64,000 bases of DNA from an uncultured Eggerthellaceae bacterium (GTDB lineage: Bacteria > Actinomycetota > Coriobacteriia > Coriobacteriales > Eggerthellaceae). A program made the translations under genes and the position numbers. The notes under the pieces were generated by a model. The model saw only the letters and a list, made by a program, of their open reading frames with translations. It was not told the origin of the DNA and did not search any database. The stretch is taken from contig CATKXW010000003.1 of NCBI GenBank assembly GCA_949840905.1, forward strand, positions 1-64,000, read 5' to 3'. This document shows, one piece after another, positions 36,484 to 58,399 of this stretch. Within the stretch, counting starts at the first letter, position 1, and each line of letters opens with the position of its first letter.

Positions 36484-39400
36484 CTACCAGACGACCCCTT
36501 CCCCGTCATAGCCTTTAAGCCTAGAAGGGTCAGATGCCACATCACCATATCCATCGAGAAGGGCCACGGTGTAGAACAGCTTGGCGATGTCCCCTGATCT
36601 GTTGGTGGCGACATCGGATGCTCTGAGAGAGGAAAGCCCCATCCCGAGATAGAAGGTCTTCTTGGAAGGCGATGCGCTCGCAGCGTCGAGGACGAGGCCT
36701 GCAAGATGGCTCTCGTCTGAAGAGAGGGTGGTCTTGCCTCCTAGGGGCAGGGCATGGCCTGGGGCCTTCTCGTCCGAAAGGGTGATGGTGACATCTCCCA
36801 TCTTGGGACCGAACACCTCTTGAGCAAGAGCAGCGCGATCGGCATGTCCTGGATCTGCTGTGTCCTCGGCCACTTCCACGATCCCTATGGGCGCTGTGGT
36901 ATAGGAGGTGAAGGCGAGCTCGGCATAGACATCGGTCGCATCTCCCGTATAGGAGGTCTCGTTTGCTCTGAAGCGCACCGTATCCGTCGCTGCATCTATG
37001 AGGATGCCAAGGCTCGCTCTTGTTGGGACGTCGATCGCTATCCGGACTGTCCACACAGCCTCTATCGAGGCGACATCATAGACGTCCTCGCCACTTCCCA
37101 GGTTCAATACCTGATAGCTCTCCCCAGGGATGAGCCTTGTGGTGGGCACGGTGTATGCTCCTGCGTCGTCTCGTCCGAAGACGCTCGCCTCCTCATCGCT
37201 TCCCTCTCTGTGGGCCACGAAGTGGGAGAAGACGTATCCAGGTTTCTTGAGGTTCGCATCATTGTCGGGCAGGGTCAGGATGGGGTCATCGTAGGTGAGA
37301 CCTTCGAAGGCTCCCTCATGCCAACCGCTCTGGCTGCCTCCTGTGAGGTCCACCTCTATCGTGTAGGGGTCCGCTTCGAAGTCAGCGACGATGGTGATGT
37401 TCTTCGATACATCAGGTATCGAGGTCACAGGGGATCCTTCGTACAGCCAGCCTTTCCAGGTGTAGCCTCTCTTGACCATGGAAGGGAGCTTCCTCTCCTC
37501 AGCTGTGGATGCTTCGTTGAAGCTCGAAGGCAGGATCGAGCCATCGGATGCGGACCAACCAACGAGAGCATCGCCGTTTCTGTCCTCATAGCTCACGGCA
37601 TAGCCGTTGGTCGTCCAGGTGGCGGTATAGGTAGCTACCGAGAAGGTCTCGCTGCTCGCGTTCCATGAGGCTGTGGTGCCAGGAGAGAACGAGCTCACCG
37701 ACGGCTCCCAGCCTCTGAAGGTGGAACCGAGGAGGGTGGGCAGAAGGCCCTCTTCTGTCATCGAGAAGGAGGGCGTCTCGATGTCGTAGGCGAGCTCTAT
37801 CTCAGTAGCGCTCCTGAAGCTCGCCTTGGGACGGCCTGCCACGGCGTTGTAGGCATCCACCTGCTCGGATGTGAACTTAGCGCCTGTGTGGGCGGTATCG
37901 CTCGGACCATGAGCCTTGAGCGATATCTTTCCTTCCACCTTGTCCCATCTCGCGAAGTAGATGGCAGCCCTCGCCTCTACGGTCGCGATGTCGTATCCGG
38001 CTCCCACTCTCTGCCCCGCTCCCTCTTTGGTCGTCCACCAACCAGCGAAGGCGTAGCCTTTGCGAGTGGGGTCCGCAGGCAGCTTGATGGAGGTCCCATA
38101 GGTCTGGGATGTCACATCCGCTCCTGCGCTGACGGTGCCGCCGTTCGCGTTCCAGGTGATGGCGTAGGAGTTGGGGACCCACCTTGCGTAGAGGGTCGTG
38201 TTCGAGGTCTTGTTCCAAGTTCGAGCAGAAGCGCCGGAGGCTGAGTAGTAGCAGGTTCCCCCAACAGATGCGCTCGTGTCGTACCAGCCTTGGAAGGTGT
38301 ATCCGAGCCTATCCGGTGGAACCGTCGATATGGCTGGCATGTTCGCATCGTATGTAGCAGTGACGCTTCCGGCCTGTCCCCCCGTCCCTCCGTTGGGATC
38401 GAAGGAGACGGTGTAGGTGTTGGGGATCCATTTGGCGGTAGCGGTGAGGTTTCCGTAGGTGCCCTTCTTGACGGTCACGTTCGTGGTGCCGTTGCCCTCT
38501 ATCCCAGAACCTGACGCTCCGCTCACGTCCCAACCGGCGAAAACATAGCCTGTGCGCGCAGGTTGAGCAAGAGCGAAGTTAGCAGTTTCGGGCGTATAAG
38601 AGGTAAGCTGCCCCGAGATGAAACCACCATTTAAGGTGTAGCTGATGCTATAAATGTTCGGTATCCACTTTGCATAGAGCGTTATGTCACCAGGGTGCCA
38701 ACAAATTCCGACAACACTCTGACCAGCTTTGGTAAACCAAAGATCACCAGTACCATTCGTACCAGTGTAATAGCCTTCAAAAGTATAGCCATTCCGCGAG
38801 GGAGGAGTAATGCTAGACAGGTAGCTAGCCACGGTGAACCGGAGCGATTCGGAGCCAGCAGAGCTTGCACCTTGATTATCTAGAGTGATGGTATATGTAT
38901 TCGGTATCCAAATAGCGTTGAATGTATAATTCTCTCTCCCGTCAAATTGGTCGTTTCTTTCGCCCCACGACCCGAAAGTGAAGCCAGCTCGCTCGATACC
39001 GAGATAATGCACAGTACCACTGGAGTCGACAAAATGGACAGCAGCAGCATTCCCAAAGCCTACCCAGTAAGTGCAGTCCGAAGTTACATAGTTTGAATAC
39101 GTACCGATCAGCGCTCCGTTTACATGTTCGCTGATAACCCCTCCGTTCCCGATGATCTTAATAGTCAATGCGCTCGCAGCATAAGAAGTCGCAGAAGATG
39201 TGTCAGCATCACTAGATGTCAGCGCAAAATGAAATCCCTCCAAAGAATCTAAATCGTTTAGCAAGCTATCACGAATCAAGTCTCCCTCATAGAAATCGAT
39301 TTCCCTATCGTCGCTGCGGTCAAGAGCTTGTTTTCGCTCAATCGAGGGCTCCCAAACAAGTTTCGACATATCCTTTGTGTAGAGGCACCCGTCCTCTGAG

Positions 39401-40383
39401 TAGAAAGCTGCGCTGTCCGCATCAGCGACCACGGCGTCCACCGAGGGGCAATGCGAGAACACCTCGGGGTTTACCTCGGTCGCACTAGGAGCGATACGGA
39501 CAGCGCCCACTCGGCCCTCGGGAATGAGCCGTAAAGTGGCAAGATCAGCGCTATAAAGAGCGCCATCGAAAGAAGCGTATGTTGGGTTATCGTCGGAGAC
39601 GACGAGGTATTGCAAGGTATCGGAACCTGTAAAGGCTCCGTCTTCTATGGAGGAGATGGAAGCCGGGATGCCCAAAGCGAGGATGCCGACGCATCCTTCG
39701 AGCGGGTCAGCGACAGCATCGACCTCTCCACCATCATCGATATCGACCCTCTCTTCGACATCAGAGGGATGCTGCGCAGCTTCGCTCGCCTCGATGTCAG
39801 CTTCAGCGGGCAGCTCTTCATCGGAGAACAGCACCTTGCAGCCCATGTAGGCCGGATCAGCGCCCTCCTTGGTAAGGGATGCAAGAGCGCCCGCGGCTAT
39901 GCGGGTGACGCTATAGGCTTCGATGCCATCAGGGCTGACCGCATCAGGGATGGCGAGGATCTGCCTTCGGATGACATCTTCGGGCAGCTTTCTGTAGTCC
40001 ACAGCTACAAGAGCGACGGACTCTCCACCAGGCTCGATGGCATATGTCATGCCATCTTGTGCGAAGGATCCCACGACGACCGAGTCGCCCAAAGGCTCAC
40101 CACCTATGGACAGCTTGGCGTTCACCACAGAAACGGCATGGCTCCCCTCGACAGCATTGGCCAGAAGGTAGTTCCGCGTCGATTCGGTTCGAGCGACCGG
40201 CTCGAGCGCTATCTCTTGGCTGATGACATCCCCAGAAAACAAGAGTTCGTCGTTCCTTCTTTCACCAGGAGAGCCATCGCCTTCCTCTGCGAAAGCGACG
40301 ATAGGGATCAGGCCGAAGGTCAAGGCGAAGATGAGGAAGCTCCGCATGAGATTCTTTGTGCAAGAGACGACAGAGGCTCGCAT
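36484..40383 (-). CDS. Secreted surface protein with LRR-like N-terminus and InlB-type B-repeats
   Basis: The signal peptide of this 1299-residue protein ends near IVAFAEEGDG. Residues ~60-345 form an N-terminal domain closely related to that of the giant surface protein (DSVVVGSFAQDGMTYAIEPG, LIPEGRVGAVRIAPSA). At least four Listeria-Bacteroides B-repeats follow (for example FDPNGGTGG, TRKGYAFAGWWTTKE), each ending in a YAKW/YARW-like segment, then a C-terminal domain with repeats (TLPDNDANLKKPGYVFSHFV). No LPXTG or membrane anchor is visible. The middle part (about 38560-39420) is markedly AT-richer. It is a presumed adhesin. Confidence 0.85.
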   Translation of the reverse strand: MRASVVSCTKNLMRSFLIFALTFGLIPIVAFAEEGDGSPGERRNDELLFSGDVISQEIALEPVARTESTRNYLLANAVEGSHAVSVVNAKLSIGGEPLGDSVVVGSFAQDGMTYAIEPGGESVALVAVDYRKLPEDVIRRQILAIPDAVSPDGIEAYSVTRIAAGALASLTKEGADPAYMGCKVLFSDEELPAEADIEASEAAQHPSDVEERVDIDDGGEVDAVADPLEGCVGILALGIPASISSIEDGAFTGSDTLQYLVVSDDNPTYASFDGALYSADLATLRLIPEGRVGAVRIAPSATEVNPEVFSHCPSVDAVVADADSAAFYSEDGCLYTKDMSKLVWEPSIERKQALDRSDDREIDFYEGDLIRDSLLNDLDSLEGFHFALTSSDADTSSATSYAASALTIKIIGNGGVISEHVNGALIGTYSNYVTSDCTYWVGFGNAAAVHFVDSSGTVHYLGIERAGFTFGSWGERNDQFDGRENYTFNAIWIPNTYTITLDNQGASSAGSESLRFTVASYLSSITPPSRNGYTFEGYYTGTNGTGDLWFTKAGQSVVGICWHPGDITLYAKWIPNIYSISYTLNGGFISGQLTSYTPETANFALAQPARTGYVFAGWDVSGASGSGIEGNGTTNVTVKKGTYGNLTATAKWIPNTYTVSFDPNGGTGGQAGSVTATYDANMPAISTVPPDRLGYTFQGWYDTSASVGGTCYYSASGASARTWNKTSNTTLYARWVPNSYAITWNANGGTVSAGADVTSQTYGTSIKLPADPTRKGYAFAGWWTTKEGAGQRVGAGYDIATVEARAAIYFARWDKVEGKISLKAHGPSDTAHTGAKFTSEQVDAYNAVAGRPKASFRSATEIELAYDIETPSFSMTEEGLLPTLLGSTFRGWEPSVSSFSPGTTASWNASSETFSVATYTATWTTNGYAVSYEDRNGDALVGWSASDGSILPSSFNEASTAEERKLPSMVKRGYTWKGWLYEGSPVTSIPDVSKNITIVADFEADPYTIEVDLTGGSQSGWHEGAFEGLTYDDPILTLPDNDANLKKPGYVFSHFVAHREGSDEEASVFGRDDAGAYTVPTTRLIPGESYQVLNLGSGEDVYDVASIEAVWTVRIAIDVPTRASLGILIDAATDTVRFRANETSYTGDATDVYAELAFTSYTTAPIGIVEVAEDTADPGHADRAALAQEVFGPKMGDVTITLSDEKAPGHALPLGGKTTLSSDESHLAGLVLDAASASPSKKTFYLGMGLSSLRASDVATNRSGDIAKLFYTVALLDGYGDVASDPSRLKGYDGEGVVW

Positions 40384-43391: not shown

Positions 43392-43601
43392 CTATTTGAA
43401 CTTCCTGTCTTGGTTGCGGCGCTCGGACTCATCGATGGGCTTATAGGTAGCACCAGCGATGTCGTCGGTGATCACCTTGCTAGCGCCGCACTTCTTGCAG
43501 GTCTCAGCCTCTGCAGCGTTGAAGGTGTTGCACTCCGGGCACTTCCACAGGATGTTGCCGATTGGGGGCGGACGGAAACCGCCTTTCATCTGTTGAGACA
43601 T
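43392..43601 (-). CDS. Small zinc-ribbon protein (69 residues)
   Basis: MSQQMKGGFRPPPIGNILW leads into CPECNTFNAAEAETCKKCG, a single four-Cys zinc ribbon, and a charged tail. A GAGGAGAGA ribosome site precedes it. It closely resembles another small ribbon protein at 46664-46876 in the RPP leader and CxxC spacing. It follows the Fe-S partner gene by 31 bp. Role unknown; a metal or chaperone role for the molybdoenzyme is inference. Confidence 0.75.
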   Translation of the reverse strand: MSQQMKGGFRPPPIGNILWKCPECNTFNAAEAETCKKCGASKVITDDIAGATYKPIDESERRNQDRKFK

Positions 43602-43632
43602 TCTCTCCTCCTTAGGCTCGTATCAACACGAA

Positions 43633-44061
43633 CTAAGCTTCTTCGCGCTCGTCGAGCGTGAACAGAACCATCTTCGGCTTCTCGGCGGCCTTCTTAGCCA
43701 GCTCTTCGATGGGGCCATAGAACATGACACCAGCCTGGCAGTGATGCACGCACATGGGAAGTCGACCTTCCTTGGTACGGTCGGCGCAGCCGTCGCACAG
43801 ATCGGTGGGCATGGGGACGTAGGTCCACTCCCACTTGCCGTTGACGTCCTTGATCGGACCGTACTCAAGGGTCTTGATGCCCCACTGCTCGGCCGGCAAG
43901 CCCAGATGCATCTGGCAAGCCAGCTCGCAAGAGTGGCAGTTGGTGCAGAACTCGTAGTCGATCAGCAGGCCATGCTGAACGGGCTTTGCGTTGTAGTCTT
44001 TGAACTCGGCCCAATACTTCACAGCATCGAAGCCGCGGTTCATTTCCTCAGCTGTAGGCAT
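43633..44061 (-). CDS. Short 4Fe-4S electron-transfer subunit (DmsB-like)
   Basis: This 142-residue protein has two [4Fe-4S] motif sets, CTNCHSCELACQMHLG and, further on, CDGCADR with PMCVHHCQAG. DmsB-type subunits usually have four clusters in about 200 residues, so this is a reduced form, similar to the small partners of pyrogallol-hydroxytransferase/acetylene-hydratase-type enzymes. It is encoded 3 bp after the molybdoenzyme stop. It probably passes electrons to the catalytic subunit. Confidence 0.88.
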   Translation of the reverse strand: MPTAEEMNRGFDAVKYWAEFKDYNAKPVQHGLLIDYEFCTNCHSCELACQMHLGLPAEQWGIKTLEYGPIKDVNGKWEWTYVPMPTDLCDGCADRTKEGRLPMCVHHCQAGVMFYGPIEELAKKAAEKPKMVLFTLDEREEA

Positions 44062-44064
44062 ATC

Positions 44065-46428
44065 TTAAACCCCCTCGAAACGCGTAAAGTGGAAGCCAGT
44101 CAGAGGCTGCGTCGTGATGAGCTCCGACTCGCTATGATCGTTCTCGGGCGTCACCTTGTAGCACTTGCACAGCGTGCTCTTGTACGGAGCACCATAGTGG
44201 GTCGGGCCGTACACGCCCATGGTGGTGAGGTTGTTGGCGTTGCAGTCGAACACACCGTACAGATGCGGCTCTGCAGCCTCTTCCTCGGGGAACCACCAGC
44301 CGTGACGGGCACGCACCAGGTTCGGGATGAGACCGGGGGCGATATGCGCCTTCTGCTTGCACTTGCCACGCGGATTCTCGAACCAAACCCAGTCGCCTTC
44401 AAGAACGCCCAGCTCCTCTGCGAGCTCCGGAGAGATGTCGCAGATAGCGGTCGGATGGATCTGACGCATGTGCGGCAGCTGGCGATGCTCGGAATGGAAC
44501 AGGCCGATGTGACGGTGGCCAGAGGTGTAGATGAGCGGATACTCTTTGTACAGCTCAGGCGTACGATACGGAGACTCGTAGGGCTCCATATGGTGCGGCA
44601 GCGGATCGAAGCCCCACACGTCGAACAGCGGAGAGTAGATCTCGAACAGACCGGTAGCAGTAACGAAGCCCGGGTTGCCGTCCTCGCGGAGCAGGCCCTT
44701 CTCGTACTTGCGATAGGTCTCGTTCCAATCCCACCAGTCGTAGACCTTCTCGCGCAGATCCTGGAAGGTGTAGTCGACGCCGTTGCCCTCGTCCTGGATC
44801 ATCCAAGTGAGGAAGTCCTCGGTGGTCTCGAACTGACCGTAGAACTCAGGGTTGAAGCGCTTGCCCATGGCCATGACGAGCTCTTCGTCAGACTTGCACT
44901 CATAGTAGCGACCCGCAGAAGCGGTGATGGTGCGCAGCGGCTGCCACCAGGAGCGATAGGAGTTGCGCTCGATGGACATGGCCATCGGGAGCACGCAGTC
45001 GGCGAAAGCGACAGCCGTCGGGGTCAGATAGTAATCTGCCACGATGGTGTACTTGATGTTCTTCCACGCCTTGTACACGCGCGGAGCGTCGCCGGCCATG
45101 TTGGCGATCGGGTTGGTCTGCTCGACCCAGATGAGCTGCGGACGGTAGGGAACGCCCGTCTCCATGGCCTCCAGCAGCAGATCCGGCGGAATGAACGGCG
45201 TATAGCCGGCCTTGTGGATCGGGGACTGCGTGGTGCCGATACGACGATCGAGCATCTCAGGGGAGATGAACTCGAGGCCAGCGCCGTACTTCTTGGAAGA
45301 GTTGTAGGCGTAGCGCACGAGCACGTTGCCGCCGGGGACGTCGAGGTTGCCGCAGATGGCGACCATGTCGTCGATGGCGTTGGAAGCCTCCATAGCGGAG
45401 ATCTGCATGTCGATGGCGAGACCCCACTGGATGCCAGCAGGCTTGGCCTTAGCATACATGCGAGCAGCGTCGATGATCAGCTGAGCGTCGACCCAGCAGA
45501 TCTCGGCGACCTTGTCGACCGGGTACTCCTGCACGCGCTCGACCAGAGAGTCGAAGCCGTAGGTCCAGGTCTCAGTCCACTCGTGATCGTAGAGATCCTC
45601 GTTGATGATCACGTTCAGCATGCCGAGCGCCAGAGCGCAGTCGGTGCCAGGACGAATCTGCAGCCAAATATCCGCCTTAGAAGCAAGCCAGGTCAGAGCC
45701 GGGTCGACCACGATGAACTTGGTGCCCATGCGCATAAGGTCGATCAGCCAGTGGCCCATGAAGCCGTCAGGGTTGGATGCGAGAGGCTGATTAGCCCACA
45801 CGACGACGACCTCAGGCTTGACCCATTCCGCGTTATTGTAGCGGTCGGGATGCAGCTGAGCGTTGTCGAGGATCCAGCAGTCGCCTTCCTGCAGCAGATT
45901 CGCGGTCATGCGAGGCTGATAGCAGGAGTCAGCGGACAGGAAGCCGAAAGACATGTTCGGCGAACCGAAAGCAGTGCGGAGAACCATAGCGCCCTGCCAC
46001 ATCGCGTTACGGCCGGTGCCGGAGAGAGCGACCACGCCCTCGGGCCCGATACCACCGAACTCATCGCGAATGATGCGGCAGCAATCCTGGAAAGCTTCCT
46101 CGATGAAGTCGAGAGCCTCGTCCCAGGTAACGCGCTTCCACTTGTTAGAACCTTTTTCTCCGTCAAGGAGCAGCGGCCATTTCATGCGATCATGGTTGTA
46201 GATCTGCTCAACCATGTTGATGCAGCGCAGGCACAGACGACCCTGGTTGTAAGCAAAATTGGGATCGCCTTCCACGCGCTCGAGCGTACCATCTTTAGTG
46301 TAGGCCAGAACGCCACAACCGTTGTGGCAGCCAGGGCCCGTCCAGACCGAAGTACGAGTCACCTCATAGCCATCTTCGTACCAGCGCCAGTCTGTTTTAT
46401 AAAGATCCTTATTGAGCTCGTTGATCAT
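44065..46428 (-). CDS. Cytoplasmic molybdopterin oxidoreductase (acetylene hydratase / catechol dehydroxylase-like)
   Basis: This 787-residue bis-MGD enzyme has one N-terminal [4Fe-4S] set (GPGCHNGCGV, GRLCLRC). It lacks a Tat signal, so it works in the cytoplasm. The run RPGTDCALALGMLNVIINED is very like acetylene hydratase, and the end holds the usual MGD-binding domain (EYPLIYTSGHRHIGLFHSEH, QIHPTAICDIS). The SADSCYQPR segment holds a Cys near the expected metal-ligand position. Relatives in Eggerthellaceae include catechol dehydroxylases and pyrogallol-type enzymes, so substrate is unproven. It is followed by the Fe-S subunit gene and surrounded by small zinc-ribbon genes. Confidence 0.8.
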   Translation of the reverse strand: MINELNKDLYKTDWRWYEDGYEVTRTSVWTGPGCHNGCGVLAYTKDGTLERVEGDPNFAYNQGRLCLRCINMVEQIYNHDRMKWPLLLDGEKGSNKWKRVTWDEALDFIEEAFQDCCRIIRDEFGGIGPEGVVALSGTGRNAMWQGAMVLRTAFGSPNMSFGFLSADSCYQPRMTANLLQEGDCWILDNAQLHPDRYNNAEWVKPEVVVVWANQPLASNPDGFMGHWLIDLMRMGTKFIVVDPALTWLASKADIWLQIRPGTDCALALGMLNVIINEDLYDHEWTETWTYGFDSLVERVQEYPVDKVAEICWVDAQLIIDAARMYAKAKPAGIQWGLAIDMQISAMEASNAIDDMVAICGNLDVPGGNVLVRYAYNSSKKYGAGLEFISPEMLDRRIGTTQSPIHKAGYTPFIPPDLLLEAMETGVPYRPQLIWVEQTNPIANMAGDAPRVYKAWKNIKYTIVADYYLTPTAVAFADCVLPMAMSIERNSYRSWWQPLRTITASAGRYYECKSDEELVMAMGKRFNPEFYGQFETTEDFLTWMIQDEGNGVDYTFQDLREKVYDWWDWNETYRKYEKGLLREDGNPGFVTATGLFEIYSPLFDVWGFDPLPHHMEPYESPYRTPELYKEYPLIYTSGHRHIGLFHSEHRQLPHMRQIHPTAICDISPELAEELGVLEGDWVWFENPRGKCKQKAHIAPGLIPNLVRARHGWWFPEEEAAEPHLYGVFDCNANNLTTMGVYGPTHYGAPYKSTLCKCYKVTPENDHSESELITTQPLTGFHFTRFEGV

Positions 46429-46663: not shown

Positions 46664-46876
46664 CTATGCGCTCGGCGGTTTCGGAGCACCAGGAGCCTTC
46701 GGGGCACCAGGAGCAGCCGGGGCAGCGCCAGGAGCGCCGGGAGCGCTGGCAGCCTCGTCGCCCGTAGGCAGATCGGCTCCGCACTTCTTGCACTTCGTCA
46801 TCTCCGGCGGGTTGAAAGAACCGCAACTCGGGCACTTCTTCATCATGTCATCGAATGATGGCGGTCTAAAACACAT
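46664..46876 (-). CDS. Small zinc-ribbon protein with Ala/Pro/Gly-rich tail (70 residues)
   Basis: MCFRPPSFDDMMKKCPSCGS holds the first pair of Cys; KCKKCGADLPTG the second. The remainder is a repetitive APGAPGAAPAAPGAPKAPGA tail. An upstream in-frame Met (46948) exists, but this one has GAGAGGAG in place. It resembles the 43392-43601 protein in ribbon and leader and lies upstream of the molybdoenzyme gene. Confidence 0.72.
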   Translation of the reverse strand: MCFRPPSFDDMMKKCPSCGSFNPPEMTKCKKCGADLPTGDEAASAPGAPGAAPAAPGAPKAPGAPKPPSA

Positions 46877-49094: not shown

Positions 49095-49904
49095 TCATTC
49101 GACCATGCCGCGTTCGCCCTTGCGTATGGCGCGCAGGTTGTCGCGCATCTGCATCTCGGTCATGCCGTAGCGGCGCGCCCACTCGTTGCGTAGGGGCTTC
49201 ATGCGAGTACGATCGAGGTAGAACGCCACTACCACCAGAGCGAACGCGCTCAAGAGCATGAGCGTGGCTATGATGCCGAGGCTCGGCTGCAGGTAATACA
49301 GCAGAAGCGATGCGAGACCGAGCAGCGCCGCTGCCCCGTAGATGGAAAGCCACATGCGCCGCAGCTTGCGGTATTCTGGCAGGTCAGGGATGACCTCGGT
49401 ACGAACATCGCGTTCGAGTATCTTGTACACGTCATCCATGTCACGGAATTTTCCGTCCTCGATGAGCACGCCATCGGGTGCGTCGTCGTCACGGATGCGC
49501 GAGATGGGCTCTCCTTTGAACTCCTTCATCTTCCGTTTGAAGGGCCGCGTGCGGGTGAAGATGGTGACCGCCATCAGCACGATGAACAGATAGGCCACCG
49601 ACATCATGATGTTGTAGATGCCCAGACTGACCACTCCGGTCTGACTGAGGCCCACCGACACCAGGATGAGCGCGAAACCGCAGCCGCCCAACACCCACGT
49701 GAGCAGGCGGAAGCGGCGATACTCCGAGGTCAGATACTGATAGAAGCTGTCCGCTTCCTGCTCGGCCGCCGACTCATCCGCCTCGGCACTGACCGCCAAG
49801 GCCGCTGTCTCGGGCGCTTCTTCCGCCCGCGCTGCCTCGTCTGTGGCAGCCTCTTCGGTCACCTCGACCATATCGAGGCGTTCGTTCTCGTTCTGGCTGG
49901 TCAT
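49095..49904 (-). CDS. Four-helix membrane protein (paralog 2)
   Basis: This 269-residue protein has an acidic N-terminus, then four helices (LLTWVLGGCGFALILVSVGL; MSVAYLFIVLMAVTIF; LSIYGAAALLGLASLLLYYL; LMLLSAFALVVVAFYLD) and a basic tail (RTRMKPLRNEWARRYG). It begins within the stop of the methyltransferase fusion gene (ATGA overlap), so it is translated with it. Function unknown. Confidence 0.62.
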   Translation of the reverse strand: MTSQNENERLDMVEVTEEAATDEAARAEEAPETAALAVSAEADESAAEQEADSFYQYLTSEYRRFRLLTWVLGGCGFALILVSVGLSQTGVVSLGIYNIMMSVAYLFIVLMAVTIFTRTRPFKRKMKEFKGEPISRIRDDDAPDGVLIEDGKFRDMDDVYKILERDVRTEVIPDLPEYRKLRRMWLSIYGAAALLGLASLLLYYLQPSLGIIATLMLLSAFALVVVAFYLDRTRMKPLRNEWARRYGMTEMQMRDNLRAIRKGERGMVE

Positions 49905-51265
49905 GACCGCTCCGTTCCTTCGGTTCGTCGTCCAACGCTGTGGCCCGACCCATCATCGGGCCCATCCTGCAACGGCATCACCATGATGACCGCGTCATCG
50001 ACAGGGTTGCCGTAATAGTCGGGAATGCTTCCTATCGCCTCGAAGCCTACCGAGCGATAGAGCGCACGAGCGTCTTCATTGTGCTCGCGTAATTGAAGCC
50101 GCATCTCGCGAGCGCCATCGCCGCGAGCGCCATCGAGAGCGCAGTCCACCAGCAGCGCCCCGATGCCACGCCGGCGCATGGACGGATCCACCGCCACATG
50201 GGTAATGAGCCCTGTGCCCTCCACGGTCCACCACCCGATGTAGCCACGCACCTTCCCCTCGCTATCACGGGCGACCGCATAGACAGCATCATGGTTATGG
50301 CGCAGCTCCATTGCGAAGGCCAGAGGAGCCCATGGGTTCGGGAACGAGCGCATCTCGATGGCCATCACCTCGCCCAGATCATCCTCGGTCATGGGCTCCA
50401 CCGTCATACCGTTCTTCGCTATCAGCAAAAGAGCATGGGCAGCCCCGCGATCTGCTCGTGCGGCCCCATCCGGCCCAGAGCAAGGCTTCTGCCCCACCAC
50501 CGTGAACGTCGGGGTGTCGAAGAAGTAGTCATCACGCTCGAACAGCTGCCGCCACTGGGCCAGCAGCCGCCCCATCTCCTCGTCACGCTCGCCATCGATG
50601 AGCGGATCACGGAAGTAGGTCATGCGATCGAACAGGGCCAGACGCTCATCCCGATCCATGGATGCGGTGCTCTTGTGAGTCACCGTCACCTCCACCGGAG
50701 CGAATCCCGCGTTGCGCAGAAGCCCATAGCACGCGGCACCGTTGCACCGATCGGTATGGGCCGTGTGGGGCACCTTCGGACGCACTGCCTCCTCATAGCG
50801 AGCGAACACGCGCTCCATCACGCGCTCCGGGTCGGGAGAAGATGCCTTCAAGCTGTCGTCCACGGTCTTGATGACCACCCATCCTCCCGGCTTCAAGCAC
50901 TGCAACGCCTTGGAAGCCGCTGCCTGCTTGTCGGGAAGATGCTGGAAGCTATGGCCGAAATACACCAGGTCGAACGAGCCGTCGGCAGCGAAGTCCTCGA
51001 AGCTGCCCTGCCGCCAACAGAACCGCTCGTCATCGGTGGCTTCAACGGCCAGAGCAAGGGCTTCCTCGTCAGGATCGAGGCCCACCACCTGCGCTATGTT
51101 GGCGTAGGGTCCCAGCTTGAGCACCGTATTGAAGCCATCGAAACAGCCCACGTCGAGCACGTGCGCATCGACCATCTCGGTCAACCCGATGCGCTCGAAC
51201 GCACTGTGGTCGGCTGCGGCGCTGCTCAGCGCCACCGCGTCGATCTGTTCGCGATTCCACGGCAT
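49901..51265 (-). CDS. Fused SAM-dependent methyltransferase and RimI-type N-acetyltransferase
   Basis: In this 454-residue protein, residues ~1-265 form a class I methyltransferase (HVLDVGCFDGFNTVLKLGPY, later LKPGGWVVIKTV). Residues ~285-440 form a GNAT domain of the RimI kind (EVMAIEMRSFPNPWAPLAFA, HVAVDPSMRRRGIGALLVD, ALYRSVGFEAIGSIPDYY), which in other species acetylates the N-terminal Ala of S18. The fusion is unusual. The stop overlaps the start of the membrane protein gene. The methyl target is unknown. Confidence 0.82.
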   Translation of the reverse strand: MPWNREQIDAVALSSAAADHSAFERIGLTEMVDAHVLDVGCFDGFNTVLKLGPYANIAQVVGLDPDEEALALAVEATDDERFCWRQGSFEDFAADGSFDLVYFGHSFQHLPDKQAAASKALQCLKPGGWVVIKTVDDSLKASSPDPERVMERVFARYEEAVRPKVPHTAHTDRCNGAACYGLLRNAGFAPVEVTVTHKSTASMDRDERLALFDRMTYFRDPLIDGERDEEMGRLLAQWRQLFERDDYFFDTPTFTVVGQKPCSGPDGAARADRGAAHALLLIAKNGMTVEPMTEDDLGEVMAIEMRSFPNPWAPLAFAMELRHNHDAVYAVARDSEGKVRGYIGWWTVEGTGLITHVAVDPSMRRRGIGALLVDCALDGARGDGAREMRLQLREHNEDARALYRSVGFEAIGSIPDYYGNPVDDAVIMVMPLQDGPDDGSGHSVGRRTEGTERS

Positions 51266-54229: not shown

Positions 54230-55555
54230 CTACTGCTCGCTCTCCGAGGCGCCCAAGCGCTTCACATCCGCCTCTTCCACGGCGCGCTTGGCAGCTTTCA
54301 GACGCAAAGCGGCGCAACGGGCAGCATAGATGCGACCATCACGGTCGAAATCGGCATGGGCTAGATTTGCGTTGCCGGGGGCGATGGATTCGAAGAAGGC
54401 GTTGAGGTCGTCCTCGTTCACCACCAAGCCCAGATGCTTCGCATACGCGTTCAGGGCGAATTGCCTGGTCAGCTGCGTGCGAACCTGCATCATCAATGCA
54501 TTGCTCAGCTGCTCTTGGGTCATATCCTCAGCAGCGAGGAAGGCATCGAGCGTGCGGTTCTCGCGGCGCAGCTGCTCGTCGAAGCCCTCGCGAGCCTCCT
54601 TCACTGCCACGCCATAGATGAGGTCGGGTATCTCCCCCACCAGGCGCTTCGCCAGCTCGTTGCCAGCGAACATCTGCGCGGTGCGATCGAAGTCGGTCTC
54701 ATGCTGCTCGCGTATCTTCTTGGCCACCTCTTCGCGCAACTGGGCGAGGCTCTGAATGCCCGGTTTCACCGTCTTCGCCCAATCGTCGTCGGGCTCGGGA
54801 GCCTTGGCCTCGATGATGCGCTTGATGGTGACCGTGGTGGCGTACTCGTCCATCTTCACGTTGCCATCCGCATCGGGCACGATGTCGGGGCCTTCGAAGG
54901 TGAAGCTCTTGGTCTCGCCCACCTTCATGCCGATGACTGCTTCGTCGAACGCATCCGGCATGGCGAACACACCAGTGGAGTACTCGCGGCCTTCGGTGCA
55001 TAGGGCGCACACGGTCTCGCCGTTCATGGTGGTGTCCATGGCAAGCTCCACCTTGTCGCCCTTCATGACCACATCATGGCTGGTGTCGGTGACGGAGACC
55101 GCAGCCGCCTGGGCCATGCGCGCCAGCTCGGCGTCTATCTCCTCTTCTTTCACCGCATAGGTGGGCACCGTGATGGACACCGGATCGTAGCTGTCCAGCT
55201 CGTAATCGGGCACAGGCACGCATACTAGCTGATAGCTGAACGCCTTGCCGCTCTGGGCGTGGGCGCCGCAGCGATACACCGGTGCGCCTATGGTATCGAC
55301 CTGGGCCGCCGTCAGGGCGAAGGGCGCACGGTGCCGCATGATCCCCTCGTCGAAGATGAAGGGTGCCTCAGCGCGCCCGAGCTTGTCCATGAGGAAGTCG
55401 ATGGGTTCTTGGTCGCCCACATCATCGAGGGAAAGGCCCGCTTTCGCCATCTCATAGGCCGCGATGCGCTGCAGCTCTTGATCGGTCTCGGCCACCGAGA
55501 GCTCCACCAGCAGTTCCAGCTTGCCGTCCTTTTCCCGTACCTTCTCGACCTTCAT
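54230..55555 (-). CDS. Trigger factor-like chaperone/peptidyl-prolyl isomerase
   Basis: This 441-residue protein has an FKBP-like middle domain (MKGDKVELAMDTTMNGETV...FAMPDAFDEAVIGMKVGETK) and an N-terminal and a long C-terminal trigger-factor region (AKRLVGEIPDLIYGVAVKEA, then NAYAKHLGLVVNEDDLNAFF). Compared with Escherichia coli Tig it is similar in length, but the N-terminal ribosome-binding signature (GFRxGKxP) was not found, so its ribosome docking is uncertain. It stands between htpG and a second trigger-factor-like gene. Confidence 0.7.
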   Translation of the reverse strand: MKVEKVREKDGKLELLVELSVAETDQELQRIAAYEMAKAGLSLDDVGDQEPIDFLMDKLGRAEAPFIFDEGIMRHRAPFALTAAQVDTIGAPVYRCGAHAQSGKAFSYQLVCVPVPDYELDSYDPVSITVPTYAVKEEEIDAELARMAQAAAVSVTDTSHDVVMKGDKVELAMDTTMNGETVCALCTEGREYSTGVFAMPDAFDEAVIGMKVGETKSFTFEGPDIVPDADGNVKMDEYATTVTIKRIIEAKAPEPDDDWAKTVKPGIQSLAQLREEVAKKIREQHETDFDRTAQMFAGNELAKRLVGEIPDLIYGVAVKEAREGFDEQLRRENRTLDAFLAAEDMTQEQLSNALMMQVRTQLTRQFALNAYAKHLGLVVNEDDLNAFFESIAPGNANLAHADFDRDGRIYAARCAALRLKAAKRAVEEADVKRLGASESEQ

Positions 55556-55624: not shown

Positions 55625-56473
55625 CTACAGGGTGCTCACGAAGGTGTACTTACCCTCCGCGTCATCGCGGATCTGGGCCGTGGGCAGATGCTCCAGGTCG
55701 GGAACGTCGGTGTCATCGACCACTACCGGTCGAGCTGCAGGCTGCTCGGCAGCCTGAGCGCCCGGCTGCACGCCGTTGACGATGGCCGTATCGATGGCGC
55801 GGCGCATCACCTTCACGCGCACCGCCGCTTTGCGGGCATTCTCCACCTGGCCCTTCTCGCGGATCTCTTCGAGGAAAGCTTCAGGGTTCGGTGCCGATAG
55901 GTACTCGGTCAGCTCGTGGTTGCCCACCTGCATGCCCAGCACATCGGCCATCAGGTCGAGGGCCATGTTCACGCGCAGCTGATACAACGTCTCTTCGCGC
56001 AGCTTGTCCTCGTACTGATCGGTCGTCAGATGTGATTCGCGCAGGAACTGCTCCAGCGAGATGTGCATGGCGTCGAAGCGTGCCTGGTTCGCGGCCCGCA
56101 TGGCGTCCACGTTGCTCTGCAGCACGTCCTCGGGCACCTCGCCCTGCAAACGCTCGACCAACGCATCGCTGCATGCCTTGAACTTCAGGTCGCTATATTG
56201 GAACTCGAGCTCTTTGTCGTACTGCTCTTTGATCGCATTGCGCACATCGTTGACGGTCTCGAGCCCATCGAAATGCGCACGCACCCATGCATCGTCCAGA
56301 TCGGCGATGCTCTTTATCTCCTTGCCGCTACTGAGCACATATTCGAACAGCTGCGCATCGATGTCCTCTTCGTTCATAGGCGGCTTCTCGGGCATGGTGA
56401 TGCGAACGTTGTCGTAGTCGCTCAGCTTGAAGTCGGCCGGATCGAGCTGAAGCGCCTCTGTGGCTCCTGACAT
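55625..56473 (-). CDS. Trigger-factor C-terminal-domain-like protein (shortened)
   Basis: This 282-residue protein has a short N-terminus (MSGATEALQLDPADFKLSDY) and then a trigger-factor C-terminal-domain pattern (LVERLQGEVPEDVLQSNVDA, EQFLRESHLTTDQYEDKL, ALDLMADVLGMQVGNHELTE). No PPIase domain is present. It is the first gene of a run continuing into the full-length-like trigger factor and htpG. A duplicated or split holdase is suggested. Confidence 0.65.
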   Translation of the reverse strand: MSGATEALQLDPADFKLSDYDNVRITMPEKPPMNEEDIDAQLFEYVLSSGKEIKSIADLDDAWVRAHFDGLETVNDVRNAIKEQYDKELEFQYSDLKFKACSDALVERLQGEVPEDVLQSNVDAMRAANQARFDAMHISLEQFLRESHLTTDQYEDKLREETLYQLRVNMALDLMADVLGMQVGNHELTEYLSAPNPEAFLEEIREKGQVENARKAAVRVKVMRRAIDTAIVNGVQPGAQAAEQPAARPVVVDDTDVPDLEHLPTAQIRDDAEGKYTFVSTL

Positions 56474-56722
56474 GACGGTCCCCCTTCGTTCGTTCAGAGC
56501 GCGAGCCGCGCCCCTTTGCGTCGTACCGCTCTGGTACCACGCGTTCTCTCTTAAGGACTATTTATAAAGTCTTCCCAGAAAACGGCCTACCACTGTGCGT
56601 ACTAAAAAGGAAAAACTAGTATTCCGGGGGCTACTTATCCAAGTGTGAACCACGGTATGCTGATAGCACCGTTTCACTGGACGGTTCTGTGTTCGAGACG
56701 AACTTTCGCTGAGGGTGATGAT

Positions 56723-58399
56723 ATGGCTAAGAGCGCGGTGAACGCTCCTGAGGTCATGAGCGGGAGCGAGAGCATTACCAATTCCGGGCGCATAACGACC
56801 CACATCGGCTTCTGCCTGATGCTCTCATGGCACTACCTGCTCCTCTTCTCCCCCGCTTTCGGGGACATCGGGCAAGATAACGAGTTCGACTACCTTTTCT
56901 TGCGACAGCTCGCGCTCTATCTTGCGCTCGCCTTTACCTTCTACGTCATATGGGCGTTCGGAAGATGGCGTATGCGCGCAGGGAAGACGGAGCGCACTTT
57001 CACCGCTCCCACGCTGCTGTTGGGCATCGGTGCTTGCGCTCTGTCGCTGCTCTACGTAGGAGCCCCCTACTTCGGGTTGCCGATACCGGTGCGCATCGCG
57101 CTCATCGCCGCCATCGGCGTGCTGCAGGCCTATTGCATGGTGCTCTGGGTGCGCTGTCTGATGAACAAGGGGTCAGGTCATGTGCTGCCGTCCTTCGGCA
57201 TATATATGATAGCGGGCGGCGTCATCGCTCTTCTCGTGTGCTTCTTCCAATGGCCAGTGCAGGGCATCGTCACCGCGATCATCCCCTTGGCGGCTTGCGT
57301 GCTGCTCACCTACGAGCGCAATCAGGATAGACACGAGCTGATGAATGCCAAGGTCGACAGCGCTACGGTCGCGGAAGTCTCTGATGAGGAAGACGATCAA
57401 GAGGCTGAGGACGAAGGCGCGGAGGACCACGCGCGAACGCTCTCTTCGCGGAACAAGCGCACGATCCTGTTCGCCGCCCTGTTCGCATTCACGTTCGGCC
57501 TGATCCAAGGCTCGTTCATCGTGGCCCAGATCCCGGTGCTCATCGTGAGCGATGCGGTGGTGCTAGTGGGCATCATCTTCGCTGGACTGCTCATTCACAC
57601 TATCCCGAAGAACCTGGGCGTGGCCCTGAGCGTGGATATGATGCATCGCTTCTCGCTCATCCTGTTCGTGACCGGAAGCATCGTCATCACCTGGTACACC
57701 CTGGGCTCGGTGCCGCTGCTCTTCTCCCAGATAGCCCTGCTAGCCGGATTCAACCTGTTCGACTTCGGCGTATTCGTCTACGGCATAGAGGGCCATTGGC
57801 AGCGTGGCCGCACCACCAACGGAGCCGATTTCGCGCGACCCATCGTGTATCTGGGCATGACCTCGGGCCTGCTGCTGGGCCGCTTCATCGTGGACGTGAC
57901 GCCCATGGGCCACAACTCCATGACGCTGCTCATCATCTGCGGTTTCGCCGTCATCATGATGGTGGGCACCACGCTCATGCCGCTCTATCGCTTTGAGGGG
58001 AACGCGAGCAACGGAGAAGACCTCGCCAGTACTGACTCTTCGCACAAAGAAAAGCAACAACCTATGGTGGTGAGCCTGTCGTCGTTTCCCACCGAGACCT
58101 TCGACGCCAGCCTGCAGCGAGCCGGCGAGAGCACCAAACGCCTAGAATCTCCCTGGCGCAGCGCCTGTCGCGCTATCGCCAAGTGGTATCAGCTCTCACC
58201 GCGCGAGACCGAGATATTCATGCTGGTGGCGAAGGGTCGCAATGCCGACTACATCCAGCAGACGCTCACCATCTCCACCCATACGGCCAAGACGCACATC
58301 GCGAACATCTACCACAAGCTCGACGTCCATTCCATGCAAGAGGTGCTCGACCTGGTGGAGAAGTATCGCGATGAGAACGAGCCTGAGCGCACGAAGTAG
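56723..58399 (+). CDS. LuxR-type regulator with 12-helix membrane domain
   Basis: In this 558-residue protein, the first ~440 residues form 12 transmembrane helices resembling an MFS transporter (HIGFCLMLSWHYLLLFSPAF, then LYLALAFTFYVIWAFG and so on), with a charged loop between helices 6 and 7. The C-terminal 65 residues are a LuxR/GerE helix-turn-helix (LSPRETEIFMLVAKGRNADY, STHTAKTHIANIYHKLDVHS). Membrane LuxR proteins of this layout are a hallmark of Eggerthellaceae and probably sense a small molecule. The ATG at 56723 is used with GAGGG upstream. A target is not evident; the adjacent genes on the minus strand are candidates. Confidence 0.88.
   Translation: MAKSAVNAPEVMSGSESITNSGRITTHIGFCLMLSWHYLLLFSPAFGDIGQDNEFDYLFLRQLALYLALAFTFYVIWAFGRWRMRAGKTERTFTAPTLLLGIGACALSLLYVGAPYFGLPIPVRIALIAAIGVLQAYCMVLWVRCLMNKGSGHVLPSFGIYMIAGGVIALLVCFFQWPVQGIVTAIIPLAACVLLTYERNQDRHELMNAKVDSATVAEVSDEEDDQEAEDEGAEDHARTLSSRNKRTILFAALFAFTFGLIQGSFIVAQIPVLIVSDAVVLVGIIFAGLLIHTIPKNLGVALSVDMMHRFSLILFVTGSIVITWYTLGSVPLLFSQIALLAGFNLFDFGVFVYGIEGHWQRGRTTNGADFARPIVYLGMTSGLLLGRFIVDVTPMGHNSMTLLIICGFAVIMMVGTTLMPLYRFEGNASNGEDLASTDSSHKEKQQPMVVSLSSFPTETFDASLQRAGESTKRLESPWRSACRAIAKWYQLSPRETEIFMLVAKGRNADYIQQTLTISTHTAKTHIANIYHKLDVHSMQEVLDLVEKYRDENEPERTK

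Follow-up and report, generated by a model that had tools for sequence, protein, structure and literature searches.

A probable 3,4-dihydroxyphenylacetate dehydroxylase (dodh) operon, flanked by zinc-ribbon genes, in an uncultured Eggerthellaceae bacterium

The stretch of DNA analysed here (hereafter the window) comprises 64,000 nucleotides, positions 1 to 64,000 of contig CATKXW010000003.1, from an uncultured Eggerthellaceae bacterium (assembly GCA_949840905.1). Gene calling by codon-usage scoring showed that its segment 43392-46428 consists of three minus-strand genes, which encode a catalytic subunit of 787 amino acids (DodhA), an Fe-S protein of 142 amino acids (DodhB) and a zinc-ribbon protein of 69 amino acids (DodhC). 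A preliminary description, made from the sequence alone, had placed the largest protein among the cytoplasmic enzymes of the acetylene-hydratase-like group of catechol dehydroxylases, and this is borne out; it matches acetylene hydratase (PDB 2E7Z) in both sequence and fold. As had also been noted, there is no twin-arginine translocation (Tat) signal: the N-terminus of DodhA, MINELNKDLYKTDWRWYEDGYEVTRTS, has neither a twin Arg nor a transmembrane segment. The nearby two-cluster Fe-S subunit is the product of dodhB, the eight Cys of which form two complete four-Cys sets (39/42/45/49 and 89/92/104/108), and the nearby permease belongs to the L-lactate permease (LctP) family. With no Tat signal, a subunit of about 750-790 amino acids and a small 4Fe-4S partner gene, DodhA displays the Gordonibacter-type pattern.

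Acetylene hydratase is the best PDB sequence match of DodhA in a phmmer search (231 bits; the next, polysulfide/thiosulfate reductase, reaches 143) and also the top PDB fold match of its AlphaFold model (pTM 0.88), with TM scores of 0.80/0.86 and an E-value of 1.6e-53, against 6e-42 for the second match. The acetylene hydratase-like segment mentioned in the preliminary description does exist (residues 231-364), but to call it near identical was an overstatement, since it is merely 52% identical overall, the best part being 77-80% over 20-30 residues.

The identity of the locus is revealed by comparison with Gordonibacter. DodhA is the full-length, one-to-one orthologue (81% identical) of a Gordonibacter pamelaeae gene, L042, and L042 is dodh, since both dodh quantitative PCR primers printed in eLife 2020 (PMC7028382) match it with 0 mismatches and a span of 184 bases; the forward-primer pattern has a single occurrence in the G. 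pamelaeae genome. The dodh gene of G. pamelaeae 3C (C1877_13905) is reported to be induced more than 1700-fold by 3,4-dihydroxyphenylacetate (DOPAC) and to track DOPAC dehydroxylation across strains (PMC7028382). In a tree of 78 rows, the window protein sits inside a 14-row dodh clade (SH-aLRT 100), beside the 96%-identical L041, and not in a clade of unrelated respiratory reductases, the placement named beforehand as the one that would speak against a dehydroxylase. The nearest rows outside the clade are a 67% homologue of genome G007 (L134) and a 58% paralogue of strain 28C. Scanning of genomes yielded full-length orthologues, 78-96% identical, in Gordonibacter pamelaeae 7-10-1-b, in two further Gordonibacter strains (sp. 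28C and Marseille-P2775), in Paraeggerthella hongkongensis, Raoultibacter timonensis and Adlercreutzia sp. ZJ176, and in several metagenome-assembled genomes; matches at E <1e-299 occur in 14 of 140 family genomes, the 67% homologue being counted in. The alignment of 14 Dodh orthologues has 541 invariant columns. As a check of consistency, Dodh is 46.6% identical to the presumed Cldh/(-)-Eddh, taken as the enzyme closest to a tandem pair (74% identical) consistent with Eldh1/2, and the published value is 45%. The enzyme itself is thus not new, and the suggestion of a new substrate finds no support, because DodhA is orthologous to the Gordonibacter dodh product, to which DOPAC has been assigned.

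Two other identities were considered. Gp Hcdh, a hydrocaffeic acid dehydroxylase (PMC11585353), was suspected because it too is present in Paraeggerthella; it was rejected, since Gp Hcdh has 770 amino acids and its presumed gene, L089, recognised by this length, by LuxR and MFS transporter neighbours and by presence in Paraeggerthella, encodes a protein only 37% identical to DodhA. For Gs Vadh, we considered the LysR-linked L092 of strain 28C (58% identical), but the described transporter pair was not seen beside it, and no gene could be equated with Gs Vadh for certain.

The surroundings of dodhA point in the same direction. Across the orthologous loci and the 67% homologue (L136 and L033 being apparently one Adlercreutzia locus), the genes usually come as Cys-rich protein, LuxR, trigger-factor C-like protein, MCFRP zinc ribbon, dodhA, dodhB, second zinc ribbon and transporter; the Fe-S subunit, zinc ribbons, trigger-factor gene and LuxR gene are conserved, and dodhB is 64-83% identical among the orthologous loci. 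In the window (Table 1), the LuxR and trigger-factor C-like genes are found about 9 kb away from dodhA, with other genes intervening. The LuxR protein has about 10 hydrophobic segments and a C-terminal helix-turn-helix (HTH). Near-full-length matches to it, at 31-37% identity, came only from dodh-locus LuxRs, whereas those of other dehydroxylases are at most 24% identical over the length or match in the HTH only. Judged by sequence, it is therefore a dodh-type membrane regulator, orthologous to the dodh-locus LuxR. Since likeness of regulators was the published route to the substrate of Gp Hcdh, such a LuxR in the window counts towards DOPAC. Scans for terminators and promoters gave signals no better than chance.

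Table 1. Genes of the dodh locus and its surroundings in the window
Feature	Position	Strand	Remarks
dodhA, catalytic bis-MGD molybdenum subunit, 787 aa	44065-46428	minus	PF00384, PF01568, PF04879
dodhB, small electron-transfer subunit, 142 aa	43633-44061	minus	two 4-Cys sets
dodhC (our name), RanBP2-like zinc ribbon, 69 aa	43392-43601	minus	directly downstream of dodhB
MCFRP-type zinc-ribbon protein, 70 aa, Ala-Pro-Gly tail	46664-46876	minus	upstream of dodhA; PF13248
LctP-family (L-lactate permease) transporter, 542 aa	41449-43077	minus	PF02652, E 3e-34
Membrane LuxR-type regulator	56645-58399	plus	GerE HTH; orthologue of dodh-locus LuxR
Trigger-factor C-domain-like protein	55625-56473	minus	46% identical to G. 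pamelaeae protein
Cys-rich small protein MPGGCWICNPMCGKCQP..., 114 aa	47221-47565	minus	at most dodh loci

Taken together, the perfect fit of the primers to the G. pamelaeae orthologue, the fully (100%) supported clade, the conserved gene order and the orthologous regulator are the basis of our assignment: the substrate of the window enzyme is very probably DOPAC. We consider it highly likely that the locus as a whole is an orthologous dodh operon, serving DOPAC import and para-dehydroxylation as an electron sink. In the mechanism that we propose, the neighbouring permease would bring in the catechol, and DodhA, a cytoplasmic bis-molybdopterin guanine dinucleotide (bis-MGD) enzyme with molybdenum or tungsten, would take electrons from DodhB, a predicted two-[4Fe-4S] protein, and reductively remove the para-hydroxyl of DOPAC to give 3-hydroxyphenylacetate. 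DOPAC would thereby act as terminal electron acceptor, and the membrane LuxR may sense the substrate and switch the operon on.

The metal-binding residues of DodhA deserve a closer look. In acetylene hydratase, the cluster ligands are Cys9, Cys12, Cys16 and Cys46, and Asp13 is catalytic (PMC12096430). In DodhA, Cys9 is replaced by Gly31, the next three correspond to C34, C38 and C66, and a new Cys, C69, follows, so that the spacing is displaced to C-x3-C-x27-C-x2-C. The single Fe-S set of the preliminary description thus stands as four conserved Cys, but the classic motif lacks its first Cys. All four are invariant in 15/15 orthologue rows and are present in 63-71 of 78 paralogue rows, some of which repeat orthologues while a few are gapped. 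A review describes the Gordonibacter proteins as having no Fe-S motif. This fits the presumed Gp Hcdh, in which Cys have been lost in both the catalytic and the partner subunit (in L089, Ser and Tyr occupy the first two of the positions); contrary to the review, DodhA and most paralogues keep the four Cys in the displaced spacing, as a putative cluster-binding set. Confidence in the AlphaFold model is lowest for residues 30-34. The invariant C169 stands opposite a Cys of polysulfide reductase (2VPW) in the alignment; this stretch lies outside the phmmer match to 2E7Z, and C169 may hold the position of Cys141, a metal ligand in acetylene hydratase. At the position of Asp13, a His (His35) is found in 15/15 orthologue rows and 72/78 paralogue rows. 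Lying beside the Mo site, it is a candidate acid in dehydroxylation, i.e. a proton donor, or may belong to the ligand sphere of the metal.

The transporter is where the window departs from most orthologous loci, which have a major facilitator superfamily (MFS) porter with the aromatic acid/H+ symport family as best NCBIfam match. The LctP permease of the window has about 12 hydrophobic segments, and L036 and L038 likewise have a permease of this family beside dodh. The MFS gene is absent there and in L031, L037 and L134 as well, and these last three have no LctP either; a strong LctP homologue was found in 7 of 140 family genomes. LctP is present beside dodh in two separate branches and always without the MFS gene, which suggests a replacement. 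In Gordonibacter and relatives (L144-L147), an LctP permease is encoded together with MutL, MmgE/PrpD, flavoprotein, methylaspartate mutase E-like and B12-binding proteins in a conserved cluster suggestive of a B12-dependent carboxylic acid mutase pathway.

Several points weigh against the assignment to DOPAC. The 2020 paper describes that of Dodh itself as awaiting biochemical confirmation (PMC7028382), and our literature search found no purified-enzyme data for Dodh; later papers treat the assignment as established. The window locus has no adjacent MFS porter (typical of the described loci, not required), and the closest relatives of the LctP permease that lies there instead (65-71% identical) sit in MutL / methylaspartate mutase E / MmgE-PrpD clusters of the B12-mutase type. 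This weakens the case for a dodh-specific permease, and for this reason we regard the chances that LctP imports DOPAC as evenly balanced. Finally, the window protein is part of a distinct sub-clade, set apart from the other dodh proteins by 30 fixed differences, so that preference may have shifted, e.g. to another dihydroxyphenyl acid. One could go further and suppose that the orthologue turned, within this sub-clade, to a related hydroxylated acid, for instance one of the 3,4-dihydroxyphenyl-2-hydroxy acids (dihydroxymandelate or dihydroxyphenyllactate), with transport by LctP, a family that moves 2-hydroxy monocarboxylates and here takes the place of the aromatic-acid porter; the enzymes of the group are, moreover, very substrate-specific (PMC7028382, PMC11887054). 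However, the sub-clade relatives L041 (96%) and L039 (93%) retain the aromatic-acid MFS gene, so that the transporter swap does not track any enzyme change; the regulator of the window is orthologous to the dodh LuxR, and even Eldh1/2, a Gordonibacter pair with 74% identity, share one substrate (PMC11887054). We therefore hold such a shift to be rather unlikely.

The remaining explanations depart further from Dodh. That 2E7Z is the best match in both sequence and fold might suggest acetylene hydratase or another non-redox hydratase of its subfamily, but His35 in place of Asp13 speaks against acetylene hydration, as does the replacement of Cys9 by Gly31, and a two-cluster electron-transfer subunit together with a LuxR regulator indicates a redox enzyme, which makes a hydratase extremely improbable. 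The general matches to the DMSO-reductase family would also be compatible with a respiratory or biosynthetic molybdoenzyme that uses an unrelated inorganic or organic acceptor and resembles Dodh by family only. We consider this very unlikely: DodhA missed all curated NCBIfam cut-offs (DmsA, PhsA, NapA and others) by a wide margin, it has no Tat signal, and its place is inside the dodh clade.

Assignment to dodh leaves to be explained the two small proteins that flank the enzyme genes. DodhC has the motif W-x-C-x2-C-x3-N-x6-C-x2-C, with a sub-threshold match to PF00641, and homologues 59-96% identical were found in 16/16 other dodh loci examined (the 67%-identity homologue L134 counted). The MCFRP-type protein, whose gene stands upstream of dodhA in most dodh loci, reaches 27.6 bits with PF13248, the cut-off being 27, and is paralogous to DodhC (E 8e-12). 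Its family has an invariant M-C-[FY]-R-P start, two C-x2-C-G knuckles and an Ala-Pro-Gly tail (overall pattern MCFRP...CPxCG...CxxCG...APGAPKPP). Copies of the small zinc-ribbon family are present at L033, L036, L041, L092, L093, L097, L102, L112, L115, L118 and L149-L156; none of the MCFRP type was found in the G004 genus, sampled by one genome. Of the 69 strong MCFRP copies in six genomes, 42 lie no more than 2.5 kb from a dodh-like catalytic gene, where about 4.4 would be expected. Of the eight copies that remain in strain 28C, seven have another molybdopterin enzyme no more than 5 kb away, the eighth being beside a trigger factor gene; since, as roughly estimated, between a quarter and a third of the 28C genome falls inside 5 kb of such an enzyme, these seven by themselves would be weaker evidence, and it is the 2.5-kb figure that carries the enrichment.

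The family is thus strongly enriched beside bis-MGD enzymes, and it seems to be unreported; our literature search found no paper combining a catechol dehydroxylase with a zinc ribbon. Accessory genes are essential for the Eggerthella-type dehydroxylases (PMC11887054), and we found no report of such genes for the Gordonibacter-type enzymes. From their neighbourhood, the two flanking proteins are most likely accessory or maturation (or docking) factors. The wider proposal, that the paralogues form an undescribed accessory family for bis-MGD enzyme assembly or partner docking in Coriobacteriia, whose enzymes would hold their [4Fe-4S] cluster through C-x3-C-x27-C-x2-C, is a tentative one, to which we give slightly less than an even chance.

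A few other genes around the locus may be mentioned. The Cys-rich protein upstream gave no match in a Pfam search and has distant counterparts near hcdh (L089, L110, L113). The trigger-factor-like gene of Table 1 resembles the C-terminal domain only; it is found between the LuxR and MCFRP genes in Gordonibacter-type dodh loci, and this recurrence suggests a dedicated chaperone. In the window it forms a tandem with another trigger-factor-like gene (54230-55555, minus), adjoining htpG. At 49901-51265 (minus) there is a fusion of an S-adenosylmethionine-dependent methyltransferase and a GNAT acetyltransferase domain, frequent near dodh in other genera. Downstream of the permease, 36484-40383 (minus) encodes a secreted protein of 1299 amino acids with Listeria-Bacteroides repeats (PF09479), likely a surface protein.

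In the gut, dopamine and the flavonoid quercetin both give rise to DOPAC as a major product, and removal of a hydroxyl alters its activity. The assignment would extend dodh past Gordonibacter, Paraeggerthella, Raoultibacter and Adlercreutzia to small-genome Eggerthellaceae, and the recurrent zinc-ribbon neighbours may offer a handle on the difficulty of expressing these enzymes outside Coriobacteriia. The zinc-ribbon family, the displaced Cys set and the transporter swap may come as a surprise to specialists.

Among known systems, the closest is Dodh of G. pamelaeae 3C, with which the window shares, besides the catalytic subunit (81% identical, 787-788 amino acids or so), the small Fe-S subunit, the lack of a Tat signal, the LuxR and both zinc ribbons; it differs by its LctP permease in place of the aromatic-acid MFS porter, by the 9 kb or so between dodhA and the LuxR and trigger-factor C-like genes, and by the 30 differences fixed in its sub-clade. 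Gp Hcdh is likewise a Gordonibacter-type two-subunit enzyme, with an aromatic-acid MFS porter and a LuxR nearby, but, beyond the low identity, L089 and its partner have lost several Cys retained in DodhA and DodhB. Pelobacter acetylenicus acetylene hydratase (2E7Z) is the closest solved relative in fold and sequence and has the same domain order; in contrast to it, DodhA has His35 for Asp13, Gly31 for Cys9, the extra Cys69 and a redox partner subunit. Pyrogallol-phloroglucinol transhydroxylase (4V4C), also a bis-MGD enzyme acting on phenolic hydroxyls, was considered as a possible closest relative, but it gave no significant phmmer match with DodhA and comes only at rank 44 among the fold matches.

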